NCBI RefSeq assembly: GCF_028882255.1
Contig: NZ_JARBUY010000001.1
Span: 247,975 to 311,974 of the forward strand
Direction of reading: 5' to 3'
Origin: Maribacter polysaccharolyticus
GTDB taxonomy: Bacteria; Bacteroidota; Bacteroidia; Flavobacteriales; Flavobacteriaceae
Length of the DNA stretch: 64,000 nucleotides
Within the stretch, counting starts at the first letter, position 1. The number at the start of each line of letters is the position of its first letter. Positions 20,457-35,620 of this stretch are shown in pieces. The notes under the pieces are model-generated. The model was not told the DNA's origin and made no database searches. It worked only from the letters and a program-made list of their open reading frames with translations. The position numbers were made by a program, and so were the translations under genes.

Positions 20457-20513
20457 TTTCGTTGTTTAGAGGTTCAACTCACAGAACGTACTTTTTGCTC
20501 ATAAATTATGCCA

Positions 20514-20681: not shown

Positions 20682-21692
20682 ATGACCCATGAGTTCAAGC
20701 ACATTGTAAAGGCCTATATCCAGGCCAGGAAAGCACATCATAAAACCGTTTTGGCAACCGTAGTGGCCCTAGACGGTTCTTCTTACAGAAGGCCCGGGGT
20801 TCGTATGCTGATTTTTGAAGATGGCAGGGCGATCGGTGCCGTAAGTGGCGGTTGTGTGGAAAAGGAGGTAATCCGACAAGCGCAAAGTGTTTTTAAGGAA
20901 GATACGCCTAAAATGATGACCTATGACGGTAGGTATCGCTTGGGTTGCGAAGGGTTGCTTTATCTATTGATCGAACCTTTTCGACCTACCGATATGTTTT
21001 TAACGGCTTTTGAAAAGCAATTGAAAACCAGGCAGCGATTCGCCATACATTCGTATTATACAAAAACCCAAGGCTCCAATAAGGACTTTGGATCCATCAT
21101 ACGTATCGGGAATACTGATTTTTCCTTTGGTCCGGGATTTCCTTCCAAGGCGGGTACGCTGGTCTTTACCCAAGAACTGGAACCTTGTTTTAAACTACTG
21201 ATCATCGGTGCAGAACATGATGCGGTGCAATTGTGCAAATTTGCGTCATTGACCGGATGGGAAGTCACTATAGTGGCACCCCCTTCGGCACATAAGGTAG
21301 TGACCGATTTTCCTGGGGCCCAAGAAATGCTTTATGTTGATGCAGGGAATTTGAAGGTCAACCAAATCGACAATCAAACCGCAGTTCTTATAATGACCCA
21401 TAATTATGTAAAAGATCTAAAATTCCTATTGAGGATCAAGGAGGCCCAACCGGCATATCTAGGTGTTTTGGGTCCTATGAACCGCCGAGAAAAATTGTTG
21501 GGAGATCTGATCGAACATCATCCCGAAATCGATGATTCCTTTTTCGATTCCATAAATGGTCCGGCAGGCTTGAATATAGGCGCAGAAACCCCACAGGAAA
21601 TCAGTATTGCCATTTTAGCGGAAATCCTAACCGTGGTGCGCCGTAAAAAGCCGATCATGTTGAAACATAAATCGAACCCCATACACTTCTAA
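20682..21692 (+). CDS. XdhC/CoxI-family molybdenum-enzyme maturation factor
   Basis: Maturation factor of 336 aa for xanthine-dehydrogenase-type molybdoenzymes; family members carry the sulfurated molybdenum cofactor to the apoenzyme. Residues 1-90 hold the XdhC_CoxI domain (VALDGSSYRRPGVRM, AVSGGCVEKEV). Residues 170-310 are a Rossmann-like domain (LLIIGAEHDAVQLCK, YLGVLGPMNRREK). The last A of its stop codon is the first A of the next gene's ATG. No matching xanthine oxidase-family enzyme is in the window, so the client lies elsewhere. The polysulfide-type enzyme at 35-38 kb uses a different cofactor form. Confidence 0.92.
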   Translation: MTHEFKHIVKAYIQARKAHHKTVLATVVALDGSSYRRPGVRMLIFEDGRAIGAVSGGCVEKEVIRQAQSVFKEDTPKMMTYDGRYRLGCEGLLYLLIEPFRPTDMFLTAFEKQLKTRQRFAIHSYYTKTQGSNKDFGSIIRIGNTDFSFGPGFPSKAGTLVFTQELEPCFKLLIIGAEHDAVQLCKFASLTGWEVTIVAPPSAHKVVTDFPGAQEMLYVDAGNLKVNQIDNQTAVLIMTHNYVKDLKFLLRIKEAQPAYLGVLGPMNRREKLLGDLIEHHPEIDDSFFDSINGPAGLNIGAETPQEISIAILAEILTVVRRKKPIMLKHKSNPIHF

Positions 21693-22300
21693 TGGGTAGC
21701 TATTCGCACATTGCCATAATCATTTTGGCTGCCGGGGGATCCTCCCGTATGAAACAGCCAAAACAACTGCTGTCATGGGGCGAAAATACCCTTTTGGGCC
21801 ATACAATGAATGTTGCCCTAGAAAGTGAAGCTGGCCAGGTTTATGTGGTCTTAGGGGCCCATATGGAACAAATCAAACCAAAAATCGACAATCCAAAAAC
21901 CATTTTTATATCCCATAACGGTTGGAAGCAGGGGATAGGATCATCAATTTCCTGTGCGGCCCATTACATTTTAAATGCCCAAAAAGGGTACAAGGCCCTC
22001 CTTTTCATGCTTTGTGACCAACCCTTGATCGATGCTGAATACCTTAACGATATGTTGTGTGCATTTGATACGGGAAATAAAAAAATCATTGCCACGGCCT
22101 ATAAACAGGGAAATGGGGTACCCGTCCTGTTCCATAAGAAGTACATCCCTGAATTAGCCGCCTTAGGGGGTGATTCCGGTGCCAAGGAAGTCATTGTGAA
22201 CAACATTGAAGAAGTTTTGTCCCTTAAACCGAACGGAAAACAGATCGATCTTGATACTTTTGAAGAATACCAACACTTAAAAAACCAAACCAACCTATGA
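21692..22300 (+). CDS. MobA-like nucleotidyltransferase (molybdenum cofactor cytidylyltransferase type)
   Basis: 202-aa NTP transferase with the nucleotide-binding start ILAAGGSSRMKQPKQLL, a central MLCDQPLID metal motif and the GNGVPVLFHKKY segment. In the MocA group this fold adds CMP to molybdopterin; in MobA it adds GMP. The pairing with XdhC favours the cytidylyl (MocA) reaction for a xanthine dehydrogenase-type enzyme. It overlaps XdhC by 1 bp and the amidohydrolase by 4 bp (ATGA), so the three form one translationally coupled operon. Confidence 0.88.
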   Translation: MGSYSHIAIIILAAGGSSRMKQPKQLLSWGENTLLGHTMNVALESEAGQVYVVLGAHMEQIKPKIDNPKTIFISHNGWKQGIGSSISCAAHYILNAQKGYKALLFMLCDQPLIDAEYLNDMLCAFDTGNKKIIATAYKQGNGVPVLFHKKYIPELAALGGDSGAKEVIVNNIEEVLSLKPNGKQIDLDTFEEYQHLKNQTNL

Positions 22301-23388
22301 AAGTCAAAAACCTGACCCTCTGTATCACCCTATTATTCATGGCATTTTATGATATAACGGCCCAAAATATGGATTTTGAGGCCTATAATCCCCAATCGAC
22401 CTTGGTAGTCCCCACCAATGAGATCAAAAAAGCCAAATTCCCCTTTATCGATGTGCACAGCCATCAAAGGGATATGTCTCCGGAAGCCCTAACGGCATTG
22501 ATCAAGGATATGGATGCCCTCAACGAGGGTATCATGGTGAACTTAAGTGGAGGTTCGGGAGAACGCTTAAACGCCATGCTAAAAAGTATAGCGGAAAACC
22601 ATCCTGACCGCTTCGCTGTTTTTGCAAACGTCGATTTTGAAGGGGTAGGTACCGAGGACTGGTCCGAAAAGGCGGTCGCACAATTGGAAACCGATATAAA
22701 AAATGGGGCCAAAGGACTTAAAATATTCAAGAGTCTCGGTTTGCGTTATACCGATATCCAAGGAAACCGATTAGCGATCGATGACCCCCGATTAGATGCC
22801 ATTTGGCAAAAATGTGGAGAAATGGGGGTACCCGTATTGATCCATGCTGCAGACCCCAAATCGTTTTGGGCACCTATGGATTCTGGAAATGAACGCTGGC
22901 TTGAACTAAAGACCCATCCCCGAAGACAAAGGTCGGATACCGATCCCGCACCTTGGGAACAGATCATTAAGGAGCAGCATACTGTATTCAAAAAACATCC
23001 GAACACGAAATTCATTAATGCCCATATGGGCTGGTATGCCAATGATCTGAATAAATTGTCCGGGCTATTGGACGCCATGCCGAATATGTACGTGGGCATA
23101 GGTGCGGTTATTGCCGAATTGGGAAGGCAACCCCAAAATGCACGTGCCTTCTTTATAAAATACCAAGACCGAATCCTTTTTGGCAAGGACAGTTGGAAGC
23201 CTGAAGAGTTTCCTACGTATTTCAGGGTATTGGAAACCAATGATGAATATTTTCCCTATTACAAGAAATACCATGCATTTTGGGCCATGTATGGCCTTAA
23301 CCTACCTGATGAAGTATTACGGAAAGTATACTACAAGAATGCGTTGAAACTCATTCCCGGACTGGACAAAGGACTTTTCAAGGAGTAA
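22297..23388 (+). CDS. Secreted amidohydrolase (Amidohydrolase_2 family)
   Basis: 363-aa metal-dependent hydrolase or decarboxylase-like protein. Residues 1-22 are a signal peptide (MAFYDITAQ end). Metal-site motifs are visible: DVHSHQRD (HxH), VLIHAADP (His), INAHMGW (His) and FGKDSW (Asp), all in TIM-barrel order. It is coupled to the molybdenum-cofactor genes by a 4-bp overlap, which is unexpected for an exported enzyme and suggests a purine or aromatic catabolic context. The substrate is not predictable from sequence alone. Confidence 0.85.
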   Translation: MKVKNLTLCITLLFMAFYDITAQNMDFEAYNPQSTLVVPTNEIKKAKFPFIDVHSHQRDMSPEALTALIKDMDALNEGIMVNLSGGSGERLNAMLKSIAENHPDRFAVFANVDFEGVGTEDWSEKAVAQLETDIKNGAKGLKIFKSLGLRYTDIQGNRLAIDDPRLDAIWQKCGEMGVPVLIHAADPKSFWAPMDSGNERWLELKTHPRRQRSDTDPAPWEQIIKEQHTVFKKHPNTKFINAHMGWYANDLNKLSGLLDAMPNMYVGIGAVIAELGRQPQNARAFFIKYQDRILFGKDSWKPEEFPTYFRVLETNDEYFPYYKKYHAFWAMYGLNLPDEVLRKVYYKNALKLIPGLDKGLFKE

Positions 23389-23401
23389 GTCCATTAAACC
23401 C

Positions 23402-23548
23402 CTAAGGTCTTTTATCCGGGTTTTCATCTGTATTATCATGGTCATATTCCTGAAAAATGCCACAAGAATATACTTTTTTCACCAAAGGTGCTTTTTTCTT
23501 GATTTTCCGTTTCGACAAGGCTTCAATTTGTGGAGACAAATAGTTCAT
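23402..23548 (-). CDS. Possible 48-aa basic protein
   Basis: Short ORF with ATG at 23548: MNYLSPQIEALSKRKIKKK at the start and a tail rich in Asp and Asn (YDHDNTDENPDKRP). The frame is open upstream to 23764 but that part is AT-rich and overlaps the sigma-factor start, so the inner ATG is preferred. The charge pattern (basic middle, acidic end) is not typical of chance. It is divergent from the ECF sigma gene and convergent with the amidohydrolase. No family is recognised. Confidence 0.35.
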   Translation of the reverse strand: MNYLSPQIEALSKRKIKKKAPLVKKVYSCGIFQEYDHDNTDENPDKRP

Positions 23549-23696
23549 GGTATAATGCTTAGTGTTTAATACTATAACAAATAACGTATAAAAAGTGAAA
23601 TTAATATAAGTTTTCACGCTATCATAATATTTTTTTAACAAATGGTGTGATTTTTTCGATAAATGGACCACTAATAAATCAAACCAAAACCAGTAC

Positions 23697-24185
23697 ATGG
23701 ATCGAGAAGGTGAATTTATACAGGTCATCAAGGAAAACGAAGGGGTTATTTTTAAGATAACCACGATTTATACCGATAACAGGGAGGATCAGCAGGATCT
23801 ATACCAAGATATCGTCTATCAACTTTGGAAGTCTTTCGAGTCTTTCCGTGGAGAGGCAAAATTCAGTACTTGGATGTACCGTATTGCCTTGAACACCGCA
23901 CTTACACATATAAAACGGAATAAACGCAAAGGACATTCCGTTGCTATTGAAGAGGTGGTATTGCAACAAACCGAACTCTACGATACGGCATTCGAACAGC
24001 GTATTAAAATACTCTATAAGCACATCCATCAATTGAATGTTCTCGAAAAAGGACTGATGTTATTACTGCTGGAAGGAAAAAGCTATTCGGAAATTTCGGA
24101 AATAACGGGGTTGACCCCATCCAATGTTGGCACACGTCTATCCCGTATCAAATTAAAATTAAGGTCAAAAATCGAAAAAAAATAA
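23697..24185 (+). CDS. ECF RNA polymerase sigma factor
   Basis: 162-aa sigma-70 family protein with only regions 2 and 4. Region 2 spans about residues 10-78 (NREDQQDLYQDIVYQLWKS, FSTWMYRIALNTAL). Region 4 spans about 108-158 (LEKGLMLLLLEGKSYSEIS, then GLTPSNVGTRLSRIKLKL as helix-turn-helix). It lies 3 bp before a membrane protein gene that is the likely anti-sigma partner. Its promoter specificity and signal are unknown. Confidence 0.93.
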   Translation: MDREGEFIQVIKENEGVIFKITTIYTDNREDQQDLYQDIVYQLWKSFESFRGEAKFSTWMYRIALNTALTHIKRNKRKGHSVAIEEVVLQQTELYDTAFEQRIKILYKHIHQLNVLEKGLMLLLLEGKSYSEISEITGLTPSNVGTRLSRIKLKLRSKIEKK

Positions 24186-24188
24186 GTC

Positions 24189-24788
24189 ATGGAAATAGAA
24201 GAACTACAAGCCACATGGACAGCAATGAGCCAAGAACTTGATAAACAAAAGCGATTAACCGATAAAATCATTTTGGAAATGACACAACAGAAATATAAAA
24301 GTAAATTTCACGGGATAACCCTTTATGAAACGATGGGCTCGGTCATATGTTTTGCGACCGCCCTATTCTTGGTCTTCAATTTTTATAAATTGGACACTTG
24401 GTATCTAATGCTTTGCGGGATTATCACCTTGGCATTTCTAGTGATGCTTCCTATTCTTACGTTAAGCACGCTTGGGAAGTTAAAAAACCTGGAGATTTCC
24501 GAATACAATTATAAAGAAACCCTCCAAAAATATACCAAGGTAAAGAACAGGCTATTGTTGGTCCAACAATTTGGGGTCTATGCCAGTTTTCTTTTGTTGT
24601 TCACTACCTTACCGGTGGCTTCCAAGGTATTATCGGATAAAGACTTTTTTCTTATGGAAAAAGATGTTTGGCTATATGTTTTTATCGGGGTGGTAGTCGT
24701 ATTCCTGGTTTTCTTCGCAAGATGGGGGTATGGCTGTTATAAAAATATCACCGATTCTGCAGAGGATATTCTCAAGGAAATGGAGTAG
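24189..24788 (+). CDS. Four-helix membrane protein, likely partner of the ECF sigma factor
   Basis: 199 aa. The N-terminal 45 residues are soluble and helical (MEIEELQATWTAMSQEL). Four membrane helices follow, near residues 50-66, 71-90, 123-143 and 157-178, with a charged loop between pairs and a soluble C-terminal helix. No zinc-type anti-sigma motif is visible. It follows the sigma gene by 3 bp, a place usually taken by an anti-sigma factor in Bacteroidetes; that role is inferred from position. Family-level annotation would be hypothetical membrane protein. Confidence 0.8.
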   Translation: MEIEELQATWTAMSQELDKQKRLTDKIILEMTQQKYKSKFHGITLYETMGSVICFATALFLVFNFYKLDTWYLMLCGIITLAFLVMLPILTLSTLGKLKNLEISEYNYKETLQKYTKVKNRLLLVQQFGVYASFLLLFTTLPVASKVLSDKDFFLMEKDVWLYVFIGVVVVFLVFFARWGYGCYKNITDSAEDILKEME

Positions 24789-24814
24789 GGGTGAATTAAA
24801 AACCACCGCTGTAC

Positions 24815-25447
24815 TTAAATAAAACGAAGTTGTTTTTGAATATAATCCAAGATCAACATCCAATTCATCTTTAAGATAAGGGCGGCCGTTGGTACGTTAT
24901 CATCCTCAATGGCAGAAATAATCCCATCGTGCTGGTTGTCGGATTTCGCATAGATGGAATCGTCTGACATAAAAGCCCTTTCGTAAAAAATGATCCTTGT
25001 TTTTAAATCGATCAATATTTGCTGTGCAAGTGCATTTTTATAATGCTGGGTAAGTATTTTATGAAATTCGAGTTTATGGTGAATGCGGGACAAAGTGTCC
25101 GTTGCATTCTTGAATTTGATCTGGGTCTGTTTCAAACCTACGATGGATGCCTCGTCGAAAACGGAATTTTCCAAAGCCAAAACTTCAAGATCAGCCACCA
25201 ATTCATAAAGATCCTTAGCCTCGGAATAATTCAATTCCGAAATAATGAACCCCCTATTAGGAATGGCTTTGATCAACTTGGATTGCTGCAATTGGGTCAA
25301 AGCCTCCCGAATTGGGGTAACACTGACGCCCAGTTTACGGGCCAAGGCAGCCAAGTTGATCGTCTTACCAGGCTCCAATTTCCCATGGGTCATTTCATTC
25401 AATAAATGTTCCCGTACCTGATCGCGTAATATAATTTTTGAAATCAT
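24815..25447 (-). CDS. GntR-family regulator with FCD domain
   Basis: 210-aa transcription factor. Residues 1-68 are the winged helix (LEPGKTINLAALARKLGVSV then TPIREALTQLQ). Residues 80-200 form a helical FCD ligand domain (LYELVADLEVLALENS; histidines in HHKLEFH and NQHDGII may bind a metal, as in many FCD proteins). The ligand is unknown, typically a small organic acid. A perfect 12-bp palindrome lies 17 bp before its start and a near-identical one lies at the promoter of the EF-G-like gene, so it probably controls both itself and that gene. Confidence 0.92.
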   Translation of the reverse strand: MISKIILRDQVREHLLNEMTHGKLEPGKTINLAALARKLGVSVTPIREALTQLQQSKLIKAIPNRGFIISELNYSEAKDLYELVADLEVLALENSVFDEASIVGLKQTQIKFKNATDTLSRIHHKLEFHKILTQHYKNALAQQILIDLKTRIIFYERAFMSDDSIYAKSDNQHDGIISAIEDDNVPTAALILKMNWMLILDYIQKQLRFI

Positions 25448-25463
25448 CCCACTAATATACTAT

Positions 25464-25475
25464 ATCGTATACGAT
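25464..25475. promoter_or_regulatory. GntR operator at its own promoter
   Basis: ATCGTATACGAT, a perfect palindrome of the GTATAC type used by FCD-GntR proteins. A partial second copy (CGTATA) follows at about 25480. It matches the site at 25750 in 11 of 12 positions. Confidence 0.7.
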
Positions 25476-25749
25476 TTAACGTATAATAACGCGGCTTCGT
25501 ATCCCAACCCCCTTAAAAACAAACAGGAATAGGCGTGAGACCCTATCCCATTAGGCCGATCCATTACCCAATAACCCCATCACGAAAGATCATTTCGCAA
25601 GGCCACGAAAATGGGCCTTGGAACTTCGTGGAAAACTTTAGGAACAAAGAAGGTATACTGCTATGAATCAAGGGGTCTTAAGACAAAACCAACTGTTATA
25701 ATACGACAATTTTCACATATAAAAGCTAACAAAAATCATGTTATTGAAG

Positions 25750-25761
25750 ATCGTGTACGAT
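25750..25761. promoter_or_regulatory. GntR operator at the EF-G-like promoter
   Basis: ATCGTGTACGAT, one base from the palindrome at 25464. It touches the -7 element that starts at 25762, so bound regulator would block polymerase. Confidence 0.65.
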
Positions 25762-25769
25762 TAGCTTTG
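25762..25769 (+). promoter_or_regulatory. Promoter -7 element of the EF-G-like gene
   Basis: TAGCTTTG fits TAnnTTTG exactly, 24 bp before the ATG, giving a leader of roughly 18 nt. The -33 region (TTATTG at 25741) is a weaker match. Confidence 0.6.
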
Positions 25770-25793
25770 TAATACATCCAAAACCAAAACTCC

Positions 25794-27899
25794 ATGAAGA
25801 TTTACGACGACAAACATATAAAGAATGTTGTTCTTGTAGGGGCTCACAACTCCGGTAAAACAACACTGGCAGAGACCATGCTCTTCGAGGCGGGATTGAT
25901 CAATAGAAGAGGTACCATTGAAGGTTTGAATACGGTATCGGATTATCATGAGATAGAACATGAAAGGGGCAATTCGGTTTTTGCGACCCCGATGCATACC
26001 GAATGGCGGCAGTACAAGATCAACATCATGGATACGCCTGGTTTGGACGATTTTATAGGGGAGATCATCTCCTCCATTCGTGTGGCCGATACCATTGTTA
26101 CGGTCATAAACGGACAGTATGGTGCTGAAGTAGGCACAGAGATCATTTGGAATTATATTGATAAATACCAAAAACCGACCTTGTTTGTCATCAACCAAAT
26201 AGACCATCTGGGCCTTAAATATGATGAAAGTTATAACAGCCTAAAGAATTTGGTGGGCAATAACTTGGTCAAGGTACAATATCCCCTAAGGCTCGATGGC
26301 GCCCAATGCATTATCGACGTGCTAAAGATGAAGATGTACAAATTCGGTCCTGAAGGAGGAAAACCGGAAAAACTCCCAATCCCTGAGGATCAAAAGGAAA
26401 TTGCGGCCCAATTGCACAATGAATTGGTCGAGAAAGCCGCGGAAAATGATGAGGAATTAATGGAGTTGTTCTTTGAAAAAGGAACCTTGAACGAAGATGA
26501 GATGCGGCAGGGAATCAAGGCCGGAATGCTTAACCAGGAAGTATTCCCCGTATTCTGCACATCGGGCATCAACGATATGGGCAGTGGTCGCTTAATGGGC
26601 TTTATAGACAATGTTGCCCCTTCTGCCATTGATGTAAAACCGGAACAAAGTGTTGAGGGCCAAACCATAACCCCCACGAAAGATGCCCCGACCTCACTTT
26701 TCGTATTCAAGACCATACACCAACCCAATCTGGGCCAGATTACGTTTTTCAAAGTGATGTCCGGTGAAATCAACCAAAATGATAAATTGGTGAATTCGAG
26801 CAATGGGGAAACCGAGATATTGAATCAATTATTCATCATGGACGGTAAAAAAAGGGAACCGGTTCCAAAACTTACCGTTGGGGATATCGGTGCCACCTTA
26901 AAATTAAAATATACCGAGACCAATGACACCCTGTACGAAGCGGGTCACCCCATCACGATTCGACCCATTCAATTTCCCGAACCAAGAACAAGAAAATCCA
27001 TTTCGGCCGTAAATAAGAAAGAAGAGGAAAAATTAAGTGAGGCGTTGAAGAAAATCCATAGCCAAGACCCTACGGTCGTGGTATCGTACTCCAAAGAACT
27101 AAAACAATTGATCCTAGGCTGCCAGGGAGAACTCCACCTGGCTACGATCGATTGGACCCTAAAGAACGTTTATGGTATAGAAGCCAAATTTGAACGACCT
27201 AAAATTGCCTATCGGGAAACCATACAGCGGTCTGCCAATGCCAATTATAGACATAAAAAACAATCGGGTGGGGCAGGACAGTTTGCCCAGGTACATTTAA
27301 AAATAGAACCTTGGTACGAGGGCATGGCCGAGCCTGAAGGTTTCAATATCCGGGGAAAAGAAGAGGTGGATCTGCCCTGGGGCGGCAAACTGGTATTTTA
27401 TAATTGTATTGTAGGAGGTGTCATCGATTTACGATACTTACCTTCCATCATGAAAGGAATCCTGGAAGTTATGGAGTCGGGACCACTGACAAAATCCTAC
27501 ATCCGTGACGTTAGGGTAATGGTGTACGACGGTAAAATGCATTCCGTTGACTCCAATGACATTTCCTTTAAAATTGCTGGTGCCCATGCGTTTAAAGAGG
27601 CCTTCTTAAATGCCGATCCCAATCTATTGGAGCCGGTGCAGGAAGTTACGGTCAGGGTTCCCGAAGAAATGGTGGGCAATGTCATGACCGACCTGCAATC
27701 AAGACGTGCGATCATCCAAGGAATCGAACCCAAAGATCAGTTTCAGGTTTTAAAATGTATGGTGCCCGCTGCGGAATTGTATGGGTATTCAACCAATCTA
27801 AGATCAATGACCCAAGGTAGGGCAACTTTCAATGCCGTATTCTCTTCCTTTCAGCCCGTACCAAAGAACGTTCAAAAAGAATTGGTTCAACAGCCTTAA
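25794..27899 (+). CDS. EF-G-like translation factor lacking the catalytic histidine
   Basis: 701-aa full-length EF-G paralogue. The GTPase domain has P-loop GAHNSGKT (16-23). Switch I reads RGNSV where EF-G has RGITI. G3 is DTPGLDDF (80-87), so the catalytic His after DTPG is Leu84. G4 is NQID (134-137). Domain IV carries HKKQSGGAGQFAQV. It therefore probably binds GTP but hydrolyses it poorly. In Bacteroides a second EF-G (EF-G2) without GTPase activity supports growth when carbon is scarce, and this gene may be the flavobacterial counterpart. The neighbouring GntR operator suggests metabolic control. Ribosome-protection proteins of the TetM type are a less likely alternative. Confidence 0.88.
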   Translation: MKIYDDKHIKNVVLVGAHNSGKTTLAETMLFEAGLINRRGTIEGLNTVSDYHEIEHERGNSVFATPMHTEWRQYKINIMDTPGLDDFIGEIISSIRVADTIVTVINGQYGAEVGTEIIWNYIDKYQKPTLFVINQIDHLGLKYDESYNSLKNLVGNNLVKVQYPLRLDGAQCIIDVLKMKMYKFGPEGGKPEKLPIPEDQKEIAAQLHNELVEKAAENDEELMELFFEKGTLNEDEMRQGIKAGMLNQEVFPVFCTSGINDMGSGRLMGFIDNVAPSAIDVKPEQSVEGQTITPTKDAPTSLFVFKTIHQPNLGQITFFKVMSGEINQNDKLVNSSNGETEILNQLFIMDGKKREPVPKLTVGDIGATLKLKYTETNDTLYEAGHPITIRPIQFPEPRTRKSISAVNKKEEEKLSEALKKIHSQDPTVVVSYSKELKQLILGCQGELHLATIDWTLKNVYGIEAKFERPKIAYRETIQRSANANYRHKKQSGGAGQFAQVHLKIEPWYEGMAEPEGFNIRGKEEVDLPWGGKLVFYNCIVGGVIDLRYLPSIMKGILEVMESGPLTKSYIRDVRVMVYDGKMHSVDSNDISFKIAGAHAFKEAFLNADPNLLEPVQEVTVRVPEEMVGNVMTDLQSRRAIIQGIEPKDQFQVLKCMVPAAELYGYSTNLRSMTQGRATFNAVFSSFQPVPKNVQKELVQQP

Positions 27900-27919
27900 C
27901 GTTAAATCACTAACCATCC

Positions 27920-27956
27920 AAAAAGAGGACGCACTTTTGACAAGTACGTCCTCTTT
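27920..27956. terminator. Bidirectional terminator between the EF-G-like gene and the microprotein operon
   Basis: AAAGAGGACG pairs with CGTCCTCTTT (extended by ACTT/AAGT). The minus strand then has five T and the plus strand has TTTGATT. It sits between convergent units. Confidence 0.8.
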
Positions 27957-27980
27957 GATTATTTAGATACGGGATCAAAA

Positions 27981-28094
27981 TTATTTGAAGTGTCTAAATG
28001 TCGCCCATTGCACCCTTTTACTATTTTTAAAATTGGAAAAATAAGTATGTGTACGGGCTTCTGTTGGTGTTTCTAAGTGAATTGTTGTTCTCAT
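27981..28094 (-). CDS. 37-aa microprotein C of the trio
   Basis: ATG at 28094. It starts MRTTIHLETPTEARTHTYFS and ends KRVQWATFRHFK. It aligns along its length with the 37-aa product at 28161: both have PTEARxHTxFS, then KNxKRVxWAxxRxF. The changes are mostly conservative, as expected for selected coding sequence rather than chance. It is basic, with no membrane segment and no Cys. It is the last gene before the shared terminator at 27920. No known family is recognised and the function is unknown; the basic aromatic tail could bind nucleic acid or a protein. Confidence 0.6.
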   Translation of the reverse strand: MRTTIHLETPTEARTHTYFSNFKNSKRVQWATFRHFK

Positions 28095-28111
28095 GATGTT
28101 TTGTTTTTGAG

Positions 28112-28130
28112 TCCTGAAATGAATTCAGGA
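28112..28130. other. Hairpin between two microprotein genes
   Basis: TCCTGAA and TTCAGGA form a 7-bp stem with a 5-base loop in the 66-bp gap between the two paralogues. There is no T-tract, so it may be an mRNA processing or stability element. Confidence 0.45.
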
Positions 28131-28160
28131 AATGATTGATGATGATTTTATCCTTATCGC

Positions 28161-28274
28161 TTATCTGTTGAAGCTTCTGTATTCGGCCCAACGGACGCGC
28201 TTAGTGTTCTTTAAACTAGAAAAAAATGTATGTTTTCTTGCTTCTGTCGGTGATTTACTTAATGTTGCTTTCAT
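28161..28274 (-). CDS. 37-aa microprotein B of the trio
   Basis: ATG at 28274. It starts MKATLSKSPTEARKHTFFSS and ends KRVRWAEYRSFNR. It is a paralogue of the product at 27981 with the same length and the shared pattern PTEARxHTxFS...KNxKRVxWA. It is strongly basic and soluble. It starts 11 bp after the stop of microprotein A, so the two are co-transcribed. It is too short for standard gene calling. No family is recognised. Confidence 0.6.
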   Translation of the reverse strand: MKATLSKSPTEARKHTFFSSLKNTKRVRWAEYRSFNR

Positions 28275-28285
28275 GTTGTTCGTTT

Positions 28286-28399
28286 TTAGTTATTGTTGTT
28301 GTTTTCAATGTTAATGTGATAAAGTCTATCCGTTTGCCAACCGCTACCCATCTCATAATATATTTTAGGCCTTAATTGATGTGGATGTAATGTTTCCAT
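28286..28399 (-). CDS. 37-aa microprotein A of the trio
   Basis: ATG at 28399. It starts METLHPHQLRPKIYYEMGSG and continues WQTDRLYHINIE with a run of five Asn at the end. It has exactly the same length as the two downstream paralogues but no clear sequence similarity to them. It lies first in the minus-strand unit, 11 bp before microprotein B. Coding potential is inferred from position, length and composition. No promoter of the TAnnTTTG type is obvious upstream (28400-28500). Confidence 0.45.
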   Translation of the reverse strand: METLHPHQLRPKIYYEMGSGWQTDRLYHINIENNNNN

Positions 28400-28661
28400 T
28401 TTTTGGTTCTTTTTAATTGACTTACACAGAATAGACGAGGAGGGTATTATTTTGTTACAGTACTATGTATAAAAAGGTACTATTTTATATAATATTTAAC
28501 AGAATCCATTGCCCAGAATTGGGACATATACCACGTAACTAATTGATTTTAATATATTTACATAATTTATATTGAAAATATTAGAAAAGTGTTAAAATAT
28601 GTATCGGTGATCCAAATCATTGTAAAAAGATATTCTGATAGCTTCTTTTGCACTAAAACAA
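28400..28661. other. AT-rich control region upstream of the microproteins and the YtfI-like gene
   Basis: Divergent spacer, strongly AT-rich, with a small dyad CCCAGAATTGGG near 28510. It presumably carries promoters for both directions, but no exact consensus match is seen. Confidence 0.4.
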
Positions 28662-29165
28662 ATGATGTGGTTCTTCATTGGCTCCTTACTTATCGCTGTG
28701 ATCATCGTATACCTGTTGTTCCTAAAAATGAAGCTATATATCAATACGGATACGCGGCAGTATTATCTCCAGGTCGTAGGCATTGTAAAAGCCAGTGTTG
28801 AAGCCGACAAAGAGCGATTGGTTCGTATACATATCAGAACCTTTTTCATGAACTTCTATGTTTATCCGTTAGAAGCCGGAAGAAGACCTAAAAAGAAAAA
28901 GAAAATTTCAAAACCAAAAGTAAGCAAGGGCAAATCTTTCAATTACAACAGGATTTTGCGAATCATCCGCACCTTTAAGGTCAACCGATTGGTTCTTGAC
29001 ATAGATACCGGTAATTGTATTACCAATGCCAAACTATATCCTCTTTGCGGCTTATCCCATCTGACCAATGGGCAGTTCAATATTAATTTTCAAGGAAGGA
29101 ACCAACTGATACTTCAATTGGATAATAGACCCATACGGATCATAAAAGCATTTATTAACAATTAA
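28662..29165 (+). CDS. YtfI-like (DUF2953-type) membrane-anchored protein
   Basis: 167 aa. One N-terminal membrane helix (residues 3-21, FFIGSLLIAVIIVYLLFL) is followed by a soluble domain with a highly basic stretch (RRPKKKKKISKPK, about 75-88). The position just before a GerW/YtfJ-like gene (11 bp) mirrors the ytfI-ytfJ pair of Bacillus, which supports the family call more than the sequence alone. Function is unknown; in spore formers the pair is linked to germination, which cannot apply here. Confidence 0.65.
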   Translation: MMWFFIGSLLIAVIIVYLLFLKMKLYINTDTRQYYLQVVGIVKASVEADKERLVRIHIRTFFMNFYVYPLEAGRRPKKKKKISKPKVSKGKSFNYNRILRIIRTFKVNRLVLDIDTGNCITNAKLYPLCGLSHLTNGQFNINFQGRNQLILQLDNRPIRIIKAFINN

Positions 29166-29176
29166 ATAAATTTACC

Positions 29177-29545
29177 ATGGAACTACATTTGGAAGAATTA
29201 TTGGGAAAGATCACAGACTTTATGAAGTCCGAAGCCAATACGGAAACGGTTGTTGGCAAACAATTTGACCTTGGGGAGTTTAAATGTGTACCGGTTATCA
29301 AGGTAGGTATGGGATTTGGTTCCGGAGGTGGCGAAGGTACCGATTCAAAAATCAAAAAAGGTCAAGGTATGGGGGCCGGAGCTGGAGTGGGCATTGAACC
29401 CATAGGTTTCTTGGTTACAAAAGGTGATCGAATTTCTTTTTTGGAAGCCGGAAAATCCCACGGATTGGCCGCAGTTTTTGAAAAAATACCGGAGTTGATT
29501 GAAAAAATCTCCGTTAACAAGAAAAAAGAAGAGGCAAGTGTTTAA
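29177..29545 (+). CDS. GerW/YtfJ-family protein
   Basis: 122 aa with the family layout: an N-terminal helix (LEELLGKITDFMKSEANTET), then VVGKQFDLGEFKCVPVIKV, a Gly-rich core (GMGFGSGGGEGTDSK) and GVGIEPIGFLVTKGDRISFL. In Bacillus this family is needed for a spore lytic enzyme, but members occur widely in non-sporulating bacteria with unknown roles. Cytoplasmic, with no signal. Paired with the membrane-anchored YtfI-like protein upstream. Confidence 0.85.
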   Translation: MELHLEELLGKITDFMKSEANTETVVGKQFDLGEFKCVPVIKVGMGFGSGGGEGTDSKIKKGQGMGAGAGVGIEPIGFLVTKGDRISFLEAGKSHGLAAVFEKIPELIEKISVNKKKEEASV

Positions 29546-29772
29546 ACCATCAAAGTGGGAAAGCCCCCAAGAAGCATCCCCACCTTGTTGTGAAAATCAC
29601 ATCGATGGCTTATCCCATTTAAAAGCAATATCTTATATTTGCTAAAATTTTGGAATTAGGGATTACTTCTCAAAGATGTAATAACAGGTTTTCTTCTAGA
29701 TTGTTTTCTTATAGCACGATTTATTTAACCCCTTTTTCTTAAATTAGCAACAATAATATACGGTAATAAAAT

Positions 29773-30228
29773 ATGGCGAAGTCGCAACAGACATTTAACA
29801 AAAGTGAAAAAGAAAAAAAGCGTTTAAAAAAGCGTGAAGAAAAGCAAAAGAAAAAATTAGCCCGAAAAGCTGCTTCAAAAGAGAGTGGTGGAGGTATCCA
29901 GTTTGCGTATGTCGATTATAATGGTAATTTGACAGACACACCACCGGATCCATCGCAAAAGATTGAAATAGACGCTGAGGATATTGTTTTGGGAATACCG
30001 AAAAAAGAAGAGGGTGATGAAGAAAAATTCGATCCGGTAAGAAACGGTAAGGTTTCTTTCTATGACTCATCCAAAGGGTTCGGTTTTATCATCGATAGCG
30101 TTGATCAAGAAAAGTACTTCACCCATGTAAGTGGTTTGATCGATGAAATCGCCGAAAACGATAAGGTATCCTTTGAGTTGGAAAAAGGACAACGGGGAAT
30201 GAATGCCGTAAGGGTAAAGAAGATCTAG
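29773..30228 (+). CDS. Cold-shock-domain protein with basic N-terminal extension
   Basis: 151 aa. The C-terminal 65 residues are a cold-shock domain: GKVSFYDSSKGFGFI holds RNP1-like KGFGFI, and KYFTHVSGL is in the RNP2 place, where many CspA proteins have VFVHxS. Residues 1-40 are very rich in Lys and Glu (EKEKKRLKKREEKQKKK), probably a nucleic-acid-binding tail. It likely acts as an RNA chaperone. It is monocistronic with a strong terminator 30 bp after the stop. Bacteroidetes commonly carry this extended form. Confidence 0.88.
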   Translation: MAKSQQTFNKSEKEKKRLKKREEKQKKKLARKAASKESGGGIQFAYVDYNGNLTDTPPDPSQKIEIDAEDIVLGIPKKEEGDEEKFDPVRNGKVSFYDSSKGFGFIIDSVDQEKYFTHVSGLIDEIAENDKVSFELEKGQRGMNAVRVKKI

Positions 30229-30257
30229 GATTTTAATTCCCGTAAATTTGATAGTGA

Positions 30258-30288
30258 AGACCGCAATGTTATTGCGGTCTTTTTTTTT
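30258..30288 (+). terminator. Rho-independent terminator after the cold-shock gene
   Basis: AGACCGCAAT pairs with ATTGCGGTCT around a 3-base loop, followed by eight T. Confidence 0.92.
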
Positions 30289-30730
30289 ACTTTTTTTTTG
30301 GCACCATTTACTTGGATAAATAAATACATGGTTTGGGATGTAAAAAATGCCCACTCGTCCTTTTTTATCCCACACAATACCGATAAATCACTTAATTACC
30401 TGAAATTGGTGATTCTACCCCCTTTTTCCAATAGGTAGATTCATGATTTAAGCGAAATAGACGATTTAAATTTCCTGTAGTACCTGAAGAAATAAAAAGA
30501 ATTTAGACTCAAGTTAAAAGAGTTTGAATTAGTAGAAGGAAGAGGGCCCATGGCCCTCTTCTTTATTGGTATAGTGGCAGTTAGTCGTAACCCCATCCTA
30601 AAAATCGAATTCAAAAAACATGTACAATACGATTTTAGTTGCAAAAAAATCATCAATATTGATTATTCCTTATAGATAATTCAAGGCATATGATTAATAT
30701 TGACACTTAATTGATTTTTTTTGAATATCC
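30289..30730. other. Intergenic region before the EamA gene
   Basis: No convincing gene. A strong hairpin at 30538-30560 (GAAGAGGGCC with GGCCCTCTTC, then CTTTATT) has the form of a weak terminator but follows no recognisable ORF, so a small RNA or a gene remnant upstream of it is possible. Several in-frame stops interrupt every frame across 30430-30530. Confidence 0.4.
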
Positions 30731-31651
30731 ATGACAAAAGACCAAAATCCATTATTGATCATCCTGGCTTTTTTCGCTATCTATGTGATTTGGGGATCTA
30801 CCTATTTGCTGAATAAGATTGCCGTAACGGACCTACCACCTTTTATGTTGGCTGGCATACGTTTTATCATAGCAGGTGTTCTTATTTTCATTATTGCCAA
30901 AATAATGGGAAAGAACATAAAAATAAGCTGGCGCCAAATCAAAAACACCACCATTGCGGGTTTCTTGTTTTTAACGATCGGGAATGGGGTAGTGGTTTGG
31001 GCACTGAAATTCGTGGATAGTGGGTTCGCTGCTTTGGAAATATCGGCCCAGCCTTTGATCGTGCTACTCCTTATGCGGATTATCCAAGGGAAGAAAATAC
31101 AAATGATGTCCGTTGTGGGGGTCATCTTAGGTTTGATCGGTATTTACTTGTTGGTGAGCCAAGAGCAAGTCCTTGACCAAGAAAATTCCATAGTGGGTAT
31201 GGTAATGATTTTTGCTTGTATGTTAAGTTGGGGATATGGCAGCCTTTTTGTCGGCAAAGCCGAATTGCCCAGAAATTATTTTGTGAATACCGGGTATCAA
31301 ATGCTTTTCGGGGGTATCATGTTGATGGTCATGAGTCTGCTCTTTGGGGAAACATGGAGTTCCCCTTTGACTTGGACCCGCCCTGTCCAATATGCCGTGA
31401 TTTTACTAATTGTATTCGGGAGTATCGTTGCTTTTACGGCATTCAATTATTTGTTACAGGTCGTTTCTCCTGAAAAAGTGGCTACCTCAACCTATGTAAA
31501 CCCGATTATAGCGATCCTTTTGGGGTGGCAATTCTTAGACGAAAAAGTAACGGTTCAATCCATCATTGCTGCCGTAATATTGCTTACCGGAGTATATTTT
31601 ATCAATACCAAGCGAAAATTCACGGTCATACCCCGTTTTTTTAAATCTTGA
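30731..31651 (+). CDS. EamA-family (DMT) transporter
   Basis: 306-aa inner-membrane protein with two EamA repeats and about ten helices. The first repeat begins LAFFAIYVIWGSTYLLNKIA; the second (about 155-290) contains SWGYGSLFVGKAELP and SPEKVATSTYVNPIIA, both typical of the family. It probably exports a metabolite such as an amino acid. Monocistronic, convergent with the rhodanese end of the sulfur operon. Confidence 0.9.
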   Translation: MTKDQNPLLIILAFFAIYVIWGSTYLLNKIAVTDLPPFMLAGIRFIIAGVLIFIIAKIMGKNIKISWRQIKNTTIAGFLFLTIGNGVVVWALKFVDSGFAALEISAQPLIVLLLMRIIQGKKIQMMSVVGVILGLIGIYLLVSQEQVLDQENSIVGMVMIFACMLSWGYGSLFVGKAELPRNYFVNTGYQMLFGGIMLMVMSLLFGETWSSPLTWTRPVQYAVILLIVFGSIVAFTAFNYLLQVVSPEKVATSTYVNPIIAILLGWQFLDEKVTVQSIIAAVILLTGVYFINTKRKFTVIPRFFKS

Positions 31652-31682
31652 GCCGATTTTACCAGTTTACAAAGGCTACTTA

Positions 31683-32294
31683 CTAACAGCCCCCTTCTGG
31701 TTTTCGTTTTTTCTTTTTCTGGATGACCATTACCTTTTTAGGTGTTTCGGGTACCGTACTTTGAACGGAATTGGAATCTCCCGTCTTTCCTTTTTGGAAA
31801 ATATCGAGATAATCGGGAATCGGTTTTTCAACCTCATAACCGGTGATTTGAAAGTCATTGTCGACCAACCGTGTTTCGTTTTCAAGGATTTTTATGTTCC
31901 CATATCCCAATTGATATAAGATCATCCAGGCCCTGTTCGCCTCATGTGGATTTTTTCCGTACAAAACAATGGTCTTCCCACTGTCCCTTAATTCATTGAA
32001 TATGGATATACCCGTATCCTTTAGAATCTCCACTGTGGGAATATTAAGGGCATTATCCAGATGGCCTTGGGAATAATCGAATTTATCCCGAATATCGATC
32101 ATAACCGATTGGGAACGGTCAATTTCGGACAAAGGAACCAGATAATCCCGGGTTGTTAGGGCCTTCAAGGTCTCCGCAGTGGTTTTTTCATATACATTGG
32201 AGGGTTTTTTGAATGTCAATATGCCAATGACCAAGACCAATATAAATACGACCGTGGATATTGAGATGCGTTTTGTTCTTTCCAATTCTTTCAT
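31683..32294 (-). CDS. Membrane-anchored rhodanese-fold protein without catalytic Cys (2)
   Basis: 203 aa. A membrane helix at about 9-28 places the domain probably in the periplasm. The rhodanese fold is recognisable from VMIDIRDKFDYSQGHLDNALNIP. At the active-site loop TIVLYGKNPHEANRAW the usual Cys is Gly, so classical sulfur transfer is impossible. The C-terminus is KKKKRKPEGGC, the same as in the next gene upstream. The final Cys may carry sulfur or anchor the protein. Last gene of the operon that begins at 37860, after a gap of 13 bp. Confidence 0.8.
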   Translation of the reverse strand: MKELERTKRISISTVVFILVLVIGILTFKKPSNVYEKTTAETLKALTTRDYLVPLSEIDRSQSVMIDIRDKFDYSQGHLDNALNIPTVEILKDTGISIFNELRDSGKTIVLYGKNPHEANRAWMILYQLGYGNIKILENETRLVDNDFQITGYEVEKPIPDYLDIFQKGKTGDSNSVQSTVPETPKKVMVIQKKKKRKPEGGC

Positions 32295-32307
32295 ATCAAA
32301 CAGATTT

Positions 32308-32964
32308 TTAGCATCCCCCTTCGGGTTTACGTTTTTTCTTTTTCATAACAGGAACCACTAACTTTCTCGATCCTTCTTCCTCTGCGTCCTTATCTTGCAA
32401 GGTTTCACCCCCAACACCGAAATACATTGCAGCGGCCAGCCTGAAATCATAGCGATCAAAGGCTTCTTTAGGCATGTTTTCCGTGGGTTTCAAAGGATTA
32501 AGGATCGTGTTGTACCATCCATTGATCCCCCCATCCAGAACGTGTAAATTTTTATAGCCCTTTCTCGTAAGTAAAATCCATGCCTGATCGGCGGTAAGGT
32601 TTTGGTTGGAAAACAATACGATATCGTATTGATCCTGATTTAAATAGCCTTCACTTTCCGGATCTAAAATTTGGTCTAAAGGAATATTGAACGCCCCAGG
32701 CATGGTATATTCGTTATATTCATTTTCAGACCGTAGATCGATCAAAAGGATCGATGGATCCTTGGCTATTATTTTTTCCGCGAGTTCATCGGAAGTCATA
32801 TACCGTTCCGGATTCACCACTTGGGCCAAAAGGTCCTCTGCAGTTACCCGTTCATTTTTTTTATAGCCCGGCAAAACCAACAACCCCAAAGCCGCAATGA
32901 AAAGCAATGAAGCTAATATGACATACCTATTTGCAAGGATTTTCGCAAGTTTCCTATTGATCAT
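32308..32964 (-). CDS. Membrane-anchored rhodanese-fold protein without catalytic Cys (1)
   Basis: 218 aa. A membrane helix lies at about 12-31 (VILASLLFIAALGLLVL). The rhodanese core shows ILLIDLRSENEYNEYTMPGA and the loop DIVLFSNQNLTADQAW, where Ser replaces the catalytic Cys. The end is KKKKRKPEGGC, identical over 11 residues to the downstream paralogue. The pair probably arose by duplication, with strong constraint on the tail. Its place after the YedE-type transporters and the oxidoreductase suggests it handles or senses imported sulfur. Confidence 0.82.
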   Translation of the reverse strand: MINRKLAKILANRYVILASLLFIAALGLLVLPGYKKNERVTAEDLLAQVVNPERYMTSDELAEKIIAKDPSILLIDLRSENEYNEYTMPGAFNIPLDQILDPESEGYLNQDQYDIVLFSNQNLTADQAWILLTRKGYKNLHVLDGGINGWYNTILNPLKPTENMPKEAFDRYDFRLAAAMYFGVGGETLQDKDAEEEGSRKLVVPVMKKKKRKPEGGC

Positions 32965-32976
32965 ATCGGTATTTAT

Positions 32977-33567
32977 TTAATAAAATACTTTTTTAATACG
33001 TTTTCGTACGATGTCGGAGACAAAGAAAGCAGCAAGGGCAATTACGGTGACACCGAAAATAATCCAACTGGCGGGTATATCAAAACTATCCACCAAGGTA
33101 ATGTTGCCTAAAAAAGAACCGTTATAGAGTCCTTCGAACACATTATATGCCTCGGAAAAAACAAAAACCCCGATCATAATACCGAAGACATAGATCCAGG
33201 CATCCAATTTACCGATGGCAACGGCACATAGACTGGTTCCCGGACAAAATCCGCCGGCGACAAAACCGACCCCCATAATGGCCCCTCCGATAATCGCCGC
33301 CCAAACATAAGTCGGGTGCACATAGAGCATGCCCATTTCTATCCAGCCCAAATAATCCATATAATACAGGCCAATTACCGAAACTACCGCAGCGGTAAAA
33401 AACACTTTCAAAACCGCGAAGTCGTACCCATAAAAAACGCCTGCCAACTTACGGGAAGAAGAAAATCCCGAAGCTTCCAGAATAAAACCGAAAGCCAACC
33501 CGATCAGCACCGCAATGATGATGTTCCATTCATCTGTCAATATCCCATTTGGAATCAAAGGTCCCAT
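32977..33567 (-). CDS. YeeE/YedE-type sulfur transporter, half 2
   Basis: 196-aa membrane protein with about five helices. The conserved Cys segment is GVGFVAGGFCPGTSLCAVAIGK, and an earlier FGFILEASGFSSSRKLAGVF belongs to the first family repeat. YeeE/YedE proteins move thiosulfate or similar sulfur species across the inner membrane. Two half-size genes here (this and the next upstream) resemble the PmpA/PmpB arrangement. It sits between its partner and the rhodanese pair. Confidence 0.85.
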   Translation of the reverse strand: MGPLIPNGILTDEWNIIIAVLIGLAFGFILEASGFSSSRKLAGVFYGYDFAVLKVFFTAAVVSVIGLYYMDYLGWIEMGMLYVHPTYVWAAIIGGAIMGVGFVAGGFCPGTSLCAVAIGKLDAWIYVFGIMIGVFVFSEAYNVFEGLYNGSFLGNITLVDSFDIPASWIIFGVTVIALAAFFVSDIVRKRIKKVFY

Positions 33568-33588
33568 ACACTTATTTTTTTTAATTCG

Positions 33589-34119
33589 TTATATCCAGTT
33601 TTTTCTAAAGAAATACGCAAAGAGGTAGGCCGTACCGAAGATGGCCAACATGGTAATAAATCCACCCGTCGATAACACTGCCATTCCGCTCAAGGCCGCC
33701 CCACTGGTACAGCCCCTTGCAATCTGTGCCCCGAGTCCGAAAAGGACACCTCCCGTCAACGCAAATACCAAACGTCTGCGTGAAGTGATCTTAGGGGAAT
33801 GTTGCACCCTAAATCCTATGCGGCCCGATAATGACCCCGAAATAAAGGCCCCTGCAAGTACACCAAGGCTTTCAAAAACCAACCAAGTATTCATGGGCGA
33901 TTCATCACCTTGAACGAACTTACTGTAATAGCCGTTATTGACCGTATGTTCATGGGATACCTTGTCTACCAAGGTAACCACACTACTTTTCATGGCACCA
34001 CTGGCCCCAAGGCCACGCCCGGTCATATAAAAGGTAAAAATGATCAATAGCCCTAAAAGGAAACCGCCGAAATAGGGGTTCCAATAAACATGTTTATTAT
34101 TTTCACTTGCTTTATCCAT
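33589..34119 (-). CDS. YeeE/YedE-type sulfur transporter, half 1
   Basis: 176 aa from ATG 34119; a TTG at 34128 is in frame but the ATG gives the usual start. About four helices. The signature is GAQIARGCTSGAALSGMAVL with the conserved Cys, preceded by GGVLFGLG. A first-repeat-like segment FGGFLLGLLIIFTFYMTGRG is near the N-terminus. It lies 16 bp after the NrfD-type gene stop (34136) and 21 bp before its partner half. Confidence 0.85.
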   Translation of the reverse strand: MDKASENNKHVYWNPYFGGFLLGLLIIFTFYMTGRGLGASGAMKSSVVTLVDKVSHEHTVNNGYYSKFVQGDESPMNTWLVFESLGVLAGAFISGSLSGRIGFRVQHSPKITSRRRLVFALTGGVLFGLGAQIARGCTSGAALSGMAVLSTGGFITMLAIFGTAYLFAYFFRKNWI

Positions 34120-34135
34120 TCGATTCAATTTTAAT

Positions 34136-35077
34136 TTAATATAGATATCGGGTTAATTGTCCTGCCTCGACCATGACAAATCGGAATACCAGACCGCCTA
34201 TCAAAATAAGGATGGCAGGGACGACGACCGGAACTTTATACCCCCTTAATTCCATGATTTCCAAAAGTCCGGGAAGGAGTAATCCCAGTATTACCACAAA
34301 TACAAAGAACATTACCGTAAACTCTCCGTTTACCAATAGTTGCATGGCCTCCAATTGCACTTCAGAACCAGCCCAATAACCCATGATCATATGCACGATA
34401 AGGGCCAATTCTATAATGATGAGACCGATATCGATTTTACTGAAAAGACTTCGTTCGCTATGCGATTTTGAAAAAAGAATAATGGTCGCCGCTGCGGTGG
34501 ACAACCCTGACACCAAGAACAATGGGCCTAAGATCGCGTTGTTCCATAAGGGACGTGCATTAAAGGCAGAAAGCAGAATACCCGTATAGATACCTAGGAC
34601 CACGGAAAGGGGAATGAGGGCATACGCCATATTCATTCGATTCTTGACCAAAAAAGCTTGGAATTTATCCAAAAAGCCGAATTTCAATCCCATATTCGGG
34701 AACAATTCCTTCCAATAACTAAAAACCCATAGCATGGACAGGGGAGTGGTCAGGAGCAATACCCAAGCCCCCCAAGACATGGGTGACTCTATTCTGATCG
34801 TCGTGTATAATCGCCAAAAATAGATCTTATGGTTAAGGTCATAAAACAAGGCCATTAAACCGACAACCAGGGCCATAGGCGCTATCATTACCGCATACTT
34901 AACCGCTGCCGGGGTTTCCCCGTCTTTTTTAAGTACGGTAGAAACTGCGGCAAAGAACAAAAGGCCGGCTGCCAGTCCACCCAAAAAAAGATACAACGAA
35001 ATTGGCCAATGCCAAATTTGCAAAGATGGGTCGATATTCGGTATGTTTCTACCACTCGTGAACAGTTCTTCTTCCAT
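34136..35077 (-). CDS. NrfD/PsrC-type quinone-reactive membrane subunit
   Basis: 313 aa, about eight or nine helices, family NrfD/PsrC. It anchors the molybdopterin complex in the membrane and exchanges electrons with menaquinone. Recognisable parts are ISLYLFLGGLAAGLLFFAAV near the N-terminus, MSWGAWVLLLTTPLS and a C-terminal LILIGGLVFRFVMVEAGQ. Third gene of the operon, 9 bp after the iron-sulfur subunit. The role in direction (reduction or oxidation) is not decided by this subunit. Confidence 0.9.
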   Translation of the reverse strand: MEEELFTSGRNIPNIDPSLQIWHWPISLYLFLGGLAAGLLFFAAVSTVLKKDGETPAAVKYAVMIAPMALVVGLMALFYDLNHKIYFWRLYTTIRIESPMSWGAWVLLLTTPLSMLWVFSYWKELFPNMGLKFGFLDKFQAFLVKNRMNMAYALIPLSVVLGIYTGILLSAFNARPLWNNAILGPLFLVSGLSTAAATIILFSKSHSERSLFSKIDIGLIIIELALIVHMIMGYWAGSEVQLEAMQLLVNGEFTVMFFVFVVILGLLLPGLLEIMELRGYKVPVVVPAILILIGGLVFRFVMVEAGQLTRYLY

Positions 35078-35086
35078 GTTAAAGGC

Positions 35087-35620
35087 TTATATTAAATAAT
35101 AAACTTGGGGTTTGGTTCCGGCTTCTGGAGCCAAGGTTTTATGTTTTCTTTCTTTAAGCAATTGTGACACTTCGCTGTTGGGGTTATCCAAATCCCCGAA
35201 ATACATGCACTTGGTAGGACAAACCGAAACGCAGGCAGGAAGTTGGCCTTTTTCGAGCCTATGGTGACAAAATGTACACTTATCCACATACCCTTCAGGA
35301 TGTTGGTATCTGGCATCATAAGGACATGATTCGATACAGGCCCCACAACCGATACATTCATCAGGGGTCACCAATACGATGCCACCATCGATGATATGAC
35401 TTGCCCCAGTAGGACAACAGCGTACACAGGGTGCATTTTCGCAATGATTGCAACGTTCGGATCGTAATTCCAATTCAAGATTGGGGTAGGCCCCTTCAAC
35501 CCGTTCGGTAATCCAATCCCTGCAATAGCCGATAGGAACATTGTTCTCTGTTTGGCAGGCAACAACGCAGTCACTACAACCTACACACTTTTTGGTGTCT
35601 ATGACCATGGCATATCTCAT
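35087..35620 (-). CDS. Four-cluster ferredoxin subunit (PsrB/PhsB type)
   Basis: 177 aa with four Cys groups: CVGCSDCVVACQ, CNHCENAPCVRCCPTG, CIGCGACIESCPYDARY and CTFCHHRLEKGQLPACVSVCPT. These hold four [4Fe-4S] clusters that pass electrons between the catalytic and membrane subunits. There is no signal peptide, as expected for a subunit carried out with the Tat-bearing partner. Its start overlaps the catalytic gene's stop by 4 bp (ATGA), so subunits are made together. Confidence 0.94.
   Translation of the reverse strand: MRYAMVIDTKKCVGCSDCVVACQTENNVPIGYCRDWITERVEGAYPNLELELRSERCNHCENAPCVRCCPTGASHIIDGGIVLVTPDECIGCGACIESCPYDARYQHPEGYVDKCTFCHHRLEKGQLPACVSVCPTKCMYFGDLDNPNSEVSQLLKERKHKTLAPEAGTKPQVYYLI

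Follow-up and report, generated by a model that had tools for sequence, protein, structure and literature searches.

A 64,000-nucleotide stretch of the Maribacter polysaccharolyticus genome (contig NZ_JARBUY010000001.1, positions 247,975 to 311,974; hereafter, the window) carries on its minus strand an operon of three genes for 37-residue microproteins. We read it as a self-contained stress operon controlled by an extracytoplasmic function (ECF) sigma factor, which would turn out hydrophilic, very basic microproteins in high dose, putatively directed at the ribosome or at RNA; to this reading as a whole we give roughly even odds (a probability of about 0.5). The coding nature of the genes, their arrangement as an operon, the type of promoter, the translation signals and the distribution of the system are the parts that could be established, all of them from sequence.

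The operon and its conserved genes

The three open reading frames (ORFs), each of 37 codons plus a stop, lie in the order A-B-B. Type A (28286-28399) is the first gene, starting 34 nt past the CGTC box of the promoter, and is followed by a first copy of type B (28161-28274) and a second (27981-28094). An AT-rich promoter region (28430-28500) lies above and a hairpin-and-T terminator (27920-27956; fold of an 81-nt stretch, -27.4 kcal/mol) below, where a sequence-only reading of this DNA had expected a control region and a terminator. The same reading had called two of the ORFs paralogues, and the two B copies are indeed 56% identical; the third ORF, type A, is conserved too. From this point on, G000 denotes the genome of the window, other G numbers the genomes of relatives, and L numbers the compared loci. 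An additional B copy, the third in this genome, lies away from the operon (G000:C11:796639-796740).

B-type ORFs occur in 10 of the 12 genus genomes searched, the window's own genome included, each positive genome having 3 to 10 matches, most of which are arranged in tandem and repeat every ~150-180 bp. Among 299 genomes of the same family, 43 are matched (E<=0.01), 36 of them clearly and again mostly in tandem; the seven weak genomes were left out of the co-occurrence count of promoter and microproteins given below. Most B sequences are 36-38 residues long, 37 being the commonest length. A sample of the phylum returned B in 7 of 296 genomes, four belonging to the same family (one weak), while the three outside it are weak (E 8e-4 to 8e-3) and are taken as chance matches.

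The ratio of nonsynonymous to synonymous substitution rates (dN/dS), pooled over sequence pairs, is 0.109 for group B1 (nine distinct sequences), 0.123 for B2, the value for the first window copy (nine), 0.063 for B3, the value for the second (five), and 0.146 for a fourth B group (22), third codon positions being the most variable in the B groups. Type A gives 0.194 over 21 distinct homologues, and the six microprotein groups together span 0.06-0.26. The sequence-only reading, which took the three ORFs for an operon of genuine microproteins, had staked this claim on homologous ORFs in related genomes and on substitutions that respect codon position. Both were looked for and found, with matches across the genus and family and pooled dN/dS of 0.063-0.194. 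Judged by these patterns, all three window ORFs are conserved coding genes, the third one included. We take the operon to be A-B-B because, upstream of orthologous arrays, a homologue of 28286-28399 sits just below the promoter, and because of its low dN/dS. Type A also heads operons with another second family (L148, L153 and L178); it is first in nine loci typed by pattern and second in L216.

Two side observations concern the B family. At L111 and L112, tandem 24-residue ORFs (MRTT[IV]F.NSKR[IV]RWS.HRNYA-like) retain the C-terminal core of B only. L073 and L107, from two genera, each have a lone B ORF flanked, on the same strand, by two families that both loci share (a membrane protein and a serine-hydrolase-like protein), and the ORF may there be part of a larger operon.

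No member of a known family was recognised. Searches of Pfam, NCBIfam, PHROGs and PADLOC with the window A, B and B proteins gave no match; against PDB sequences, the B profile reaches a best E of 0.23 and A and the type C described below give nothing. The claim that the microproteins match no known family thus holds across these libraries. None of 39 C sequences is matched in Pfam or NCBIfam, with one PHROG at E 0.084, and one sequence of type D (see below) falls short of the cutoff of Pfam PSME4_C (E 0.042), with no NCBIfam or PHROG. The one Rfam match (E 0.05) is far under the gathering score and is regarded as chance. Since no library match is significant, and since no description of such arrays was found in the open-access literature as judged by titles and the starts of abstracts, the system appears, on its sequence, to be new in anatomy.

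A near-invariant promoter and the microproteins below it

The promoter region, like the genes, is read on the minus strand. It comprises an upstream GTTAAA element (28491-28500), a first GTAC repeat (AATAGTACC, 28476-28484) that is a possible activator site, the stretch TAGTACTGTAACA (28453-28465), which unites a second GTAC repeat with a -35-like GTAAC box and is the sole exact site in the genome, and a -10-like CGTC box (28434-28437) located 15 nt below TGTAACA, as in other promoters. The first two elements are conserved in an alignment of 18 promoters and in a consensus of 116 rows. The window promoter can be written TAGTACTGTAACA-N15-CGTC, with the operon starting 34 nt downstream, and the form found above many arrays is GTTAAA...AATAGTACC-N9-ATAGTACTGTAACAAAA-N11-CGTCT. 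GTAAC and CGTC at such spacing are the usual look of ECF-sigma promoters, and 28434-28465 combines a GTAAC-like -35 box, a CGTC-like -10 box, 15-18 nt spacing and a position above the first gene.

The shorter core TGTAACA-N14..16-CGTC occurs at eight sites in the window's own genome, compared with one for the reversed control. Besides the operon, these sites precede an ECF sigma gene, a Pmp3-family gene, a DUF4870 gene and genes for two secreted-looking proteins; two have no obvious gene start. The promoter is assigned to the ECF type because this core also precedes the ECF sigma, Pmp3-family and DUF4870 genes. In excerpts of PMC9723704, the motif SM6 of Flavobacterium psychrophilum is likewise assigned to ECF sigma factors on the CGT box in the -10 region. 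From these sequence features and the tandem genes we infer ECF-sigma control and a high dose of microproteins.

Exact copies of the full element number one each in G000, G001, G002 and G003 and two in G005. A wider regulon was sought through sites with up to three mismatches and rejected, there being no excess over the reversed control (6 versus 9 in G000, 4 versus 12 in G005, 10 versus 9 in G002, 9 versus 13 in G003 and 7 versus 9 in G001); at the one-mismatch sites L260 and L262, the 1200 nt inspected contain no W-type micro-ORF. Across the family, AGTACTGTAACA-N14..16-CGTC is present in 119 of 299 genomes, each of which has it once or twice, against 0 genomes for the reversed control.

A scan of GTDB contigs for CATAGTACTGTAACA-N15-CGTC found at least 117 stretches, of which 10 with less than 300 nt downstream were excluded and 107 assessed. 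The 80 record titles listed name Flavobacteriaceae genera, or metagenome-assembled genomes labelled Flavobacteriaceae, Flavobacteriia, Flavobacteriales, Bacteroidia or Bacteroidetes. Closest to window positions 20001-36000 among these loci are L190 of Maribacter luteus (78% over 4.8 kb) and L182 of M. polysiphoniae (79% over 2.6 kb). Among the matches listed, 100 of the 107 promoters have a micro-ORF typed A, B, C or D within 800 nt, against 0 of 1563 control windows, and 78 have two or more in tandem. The type patterns were written after seeing examples; independent of them is a signature, W-x3-[RK]-x-[YFH], which appears in 208 of 251 micro-ORFs picked by promoter and start context alone and in 2.2% of shuffled sequences. 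The longer K-x3-W-x3-[RK]-x-[YFHN] is found in 162 of the 251. Of the seven promoters lacking a typed micro-ORF, L212, L249 and L252 have related-looking micro-ORFs and L167, L170, L210 and L248 do not.

The reverse test starts from the proteins. Upstream of 41 B-array loci found by protein, the GTAAC-CGTC core lies within 420 nt in 27, or in 30 with near variants, the corresponding figures being 35 and 59 of 2050 for windows drawn at random from these loci, in which true promoters had been left. For C loci found by protein, the full element is present somewhere in ~3 kb of nine out of ten. Over the 299 family genomes, 112 have promoter and microproteins, 7 the promoter only, 28 a microprotein only and 152 neither (counts uncorrected for ancestry). 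All seven promoter-only places were inspected: L296, L297, L298, L299 and L301 carry a 41-47-residue ORF with W-x3-R-x-[YF], at L302 a 29-residue ORF ending FKRRIA is present four times, and no such micro-ORF was seen at L300. Twelve of the 28 microprotein-only genomes were read; ten keep GTAAC with [CA]GTC, six of these without the GTAC repeat, and L311 and L312 have another promoter.

Type C is a 28-residue family (MRTLNNNQ...W-N-x2-KRRYR) found in 107 of 299 family genomes (E<=0.001), with a dN/dS of 0.263 over 83 distinct sequences; in the phylum sample it occurs in 3 of 296, all from the same family. Type D, of ~44 residues, often follows C. B and C stand behind the same promoter and are near-exclusive, with both present in 3 of the 140 genomes having either, as if one type replaces the other there. 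In the L148 operon, the N-termini of A and C are alike (MEKLHKHQLR and METLNKHQVR), which suggests that these two types are linked. A tryptophan-less family of ~29-36 residues (NTK.R..FM.TEA.S...[KR]RR) lies below the same promoter at L157 (Gramella), L233, L212 and L302.

Some B copies, at the single-locus arrays L076 and L088, are not behind the ECF-type promoter. Upstream of L076 is ACAGTTGGT-N12-ACAATTGGG, and L088 has one such half; the L076 arrangement resembles what we take to be direct repeats of the kind bound by LytTR regulators.

Neighbouring genes and candidate partners

The sequence-only reading had imagined a link to the neighbouring EF-G2 and, through it, to translation or stress. 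EF-G2 is near 7 of 117 promoter loci among the matches listed and 5 of 41 B-array loci, and was rejected as a functional partner; its adjacency is best described, from these counts, as lineage synteny. The suggested tie to stress loses this footing and finds separate support in the ECF-sigma-type promoter. As for translation, the microproteins are sufficiently basic that they could bind RNA. Around the same 117 listed loci there is no universal neighbour gene: the commonest family nearby encodes a divergent secreted-looking protein (35 loci), and an ECF sigma family is near seven. Within the window, positions 23697-24788 hold an ECF sigma gene (23697-24185) and then a 199-aa membrane-protein-like ORF without a Pfam match, a pair that looked like candidate regulators because L101 has it beside its array.

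Above the operon lies a divergent pair, namely a 167-aa protein without a Pfam match (28662-29165) and a YtfJ-family protein, here in a non-sporulating bacterium (29177-29545). A phage or plasmid origin was considered and set aside: there is no DNA match in phage and plasmid collections and no PHROG for the window proteins. Neither of two viral-contig matches to the promoter pattern has a W-type micro-ORF in the 1200 nt inspected. One contig of the viral collection, L284, combines GTTAA, the two GTAC repeats, GTAAC and CGTC in its promoter, with no W-type micro-ORF in those 1200 nt.

Proposed function and relation to known systems

Across 290 ORFs of types B and C, selected in part by motif, A is found at -3 in 93%, at -6 in 68%, at -11 in 95%, at -12 in 96% and at -13 in 90%. 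Excerpts of PMC6847099, on ribosome profiling in F. johnsoniae, describe A at -3, -6, -12 and -13 as positive determinants of translation. The start contexts are, by this resemblance, those of highly translated genes in Flavobacteriaceae. The same 290 ORFs have a median isoelectric point (pI) of 11.6, a net charge of +6 and a grand average of hydropathy (GRAVY) of -1.3. They are thus small and very basic, as are the RMF/Sra-like ribosome-associated stress proteins, and are not the hydrophobic, membrane-spanning short peptides of type I toxins. The ribosome or RNA is put forward as a putative target because of these medians and a helix at residues 25-35 of a weak structural model.

In the mechanism we propose, an ECF sigma factor would switch the operon on, perhaps assisted by a regulator binding the GTAC repeat, and the tandem copies would yield a high dose of tiny proteins. 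Each product may be flexible in its N-terminal part and end in a short helix bearing K-x3-W-x3-R-x-[YF]; in the model, the alignment-conserved K25, W29 and R33 would face one side of the second helix. As a guess with moderate support, the microproteins might be cytosolic and bind to the ribosome or to RNA, in the manner of the small basic proteins that associate with ribosomes in stationary phase, and such binding could damp or protect translation under stress.

Several results weigh against this account. Basic charge is by itself no demonstration of RNA binding, and the AlphaFold model of B is weak (predicted local distance difference test score, pLDDT, 66; predicted template modelling score, pTM, 0.32; helices at 11-17 and 25-35). 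B and C profiles, aligned in register over K-x3-W-x3-R-x-[YF], give an hhalign probability of 2.2% and an E of 0.022; because this profile-profile match is not significant, we do not claim common descent. Eleven of the 41 B loci have neither core nor near variant upstream, and therefore some B copies lie under other promoters or inside other operons (e.g., L073 and L107). The ECF sigma/membrane pair at 23697-24788 fails as a universal regulator, its membrane partner being present in 42 of 299 family genomes; G002, which bears the operon, lacks it.

It is rather unlikely, in our judgement, that the microproteins instead serve the stress response as feedback or adaptor peptides by binding a single protein partner, for instance RNA polymerase, a sigma or anti-sigma factor, or a protease. 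Docking to a protein would agree with the short conserved helix and its fixed K-x3-W-x3-R-x-[YF], and feedback with the dedicated promoter, whereas several copies in tandem and start contexts suited to high translation suggest that the target is more abundant, and no neighbour gene is universal among the 117 promoter loci listed. We consider it unlikely, too, that the peptides act on the cell envelope or as self-directed, toxin-like agents of growth arrest, multiplied as tandem copies and kept silent until the sigma factor becomes active. Known type I toxins are hydrophobic. The placing of short tandem ORFs under an inducible promoter, the ECF type of that promoter, suggestive of envelope stress, and the ability of very basic peptides with aromatic residues to bind membranes are all in keeping with such an action, but the median GRAVY is unlike that of hydrophobic toxins, PADLOC gives no match and no antitoxin candidate was recognised, antisense RNAs and their promoters not having been searched for. 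That the array transcript outweighs its peptides, as a regulatory or dual-function RNA driven by a stress sigma factor, we hold to be improbable: small RNAs are a usual arm of ECF regulons elsewhere and tandem repeats share one transcript here, but dN/dS is low with third codon positions freest, ORF lengths are fixed, each ORF has a near-ideal start context, and there is no Rfam family beyond the chance match. Precursors of a modified, exported natural product (ribosomally synthesized and post-translationally modified peptides) often come as tandem short genes, but the idea is scarcely credible here, as no signal peptide is apparent by eye, a judgement made without a predictor, and inspection by eye of the 28 most frequent neighbour clusters of the 117 loci listed turned up neither a modification enzyme nor an exporter.

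Returning to the ribosome- or RNA-directed stress operon, a broader proposal is tentative and stated as a possibility that we doubt somewhat: a Flavobacteriaceae stress pathway in which a near-invariant ECF-type promoter, at one or two copies per genome, has as its sole output tandem, interchangeable basic microproteins whose C-terminal W-x3-[RK]-x-[YF] helix binds the ribosome or its RNA and adjusts translation. That so invariant a promoter precedes tiny tandem genes in many genera points to a stress response that has been overlooked in this major family of marine bacteria, with genes short enough for ordinary annotation and proteomics to miss, and the promoter offers a simple experimental handle on signal, sigma factor and target.

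Among known systems, the SM6 promoters of F. psychrophilum (PMC9723704) come from the same bacterial family and share with those described here a CGT box at -10; the genes that the excerpts name under SM6 are mainly those of the type IX secretion system (T9SS), band-7 and other full-size proteins, and tandem microproteins and a GTAC repeat, unlike here, go unmentioned there. Tandem short intergenic ORFs are the feature held in common with the ldr, ibs and hok arrays. The products of those arrays are type I toxins, which are hydrophobic and have antisense RNA partners, whereas the present proteins are hydrophilic, basic and encoded behind an ECF-type promoter. RMF and Sra of E. coli are small, very basic and believed to be produced when cells are stressed or grow slowly. 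The present microproteins share their smallness and strong basicity, but RMF and Sra are longer, are encoded by single genes in another phylum and show no sequence similarity in the family libraries. With the small-RNA arm of envelope-stress sigma regulons, as generally understood, the operon has in common a dedicated stress promoter and a very short transcription unit; it differs in that its product is coding by dN/dS and start context, and, if the proposed pathway is real, it would be the peptide-dose counterpart of that arm.
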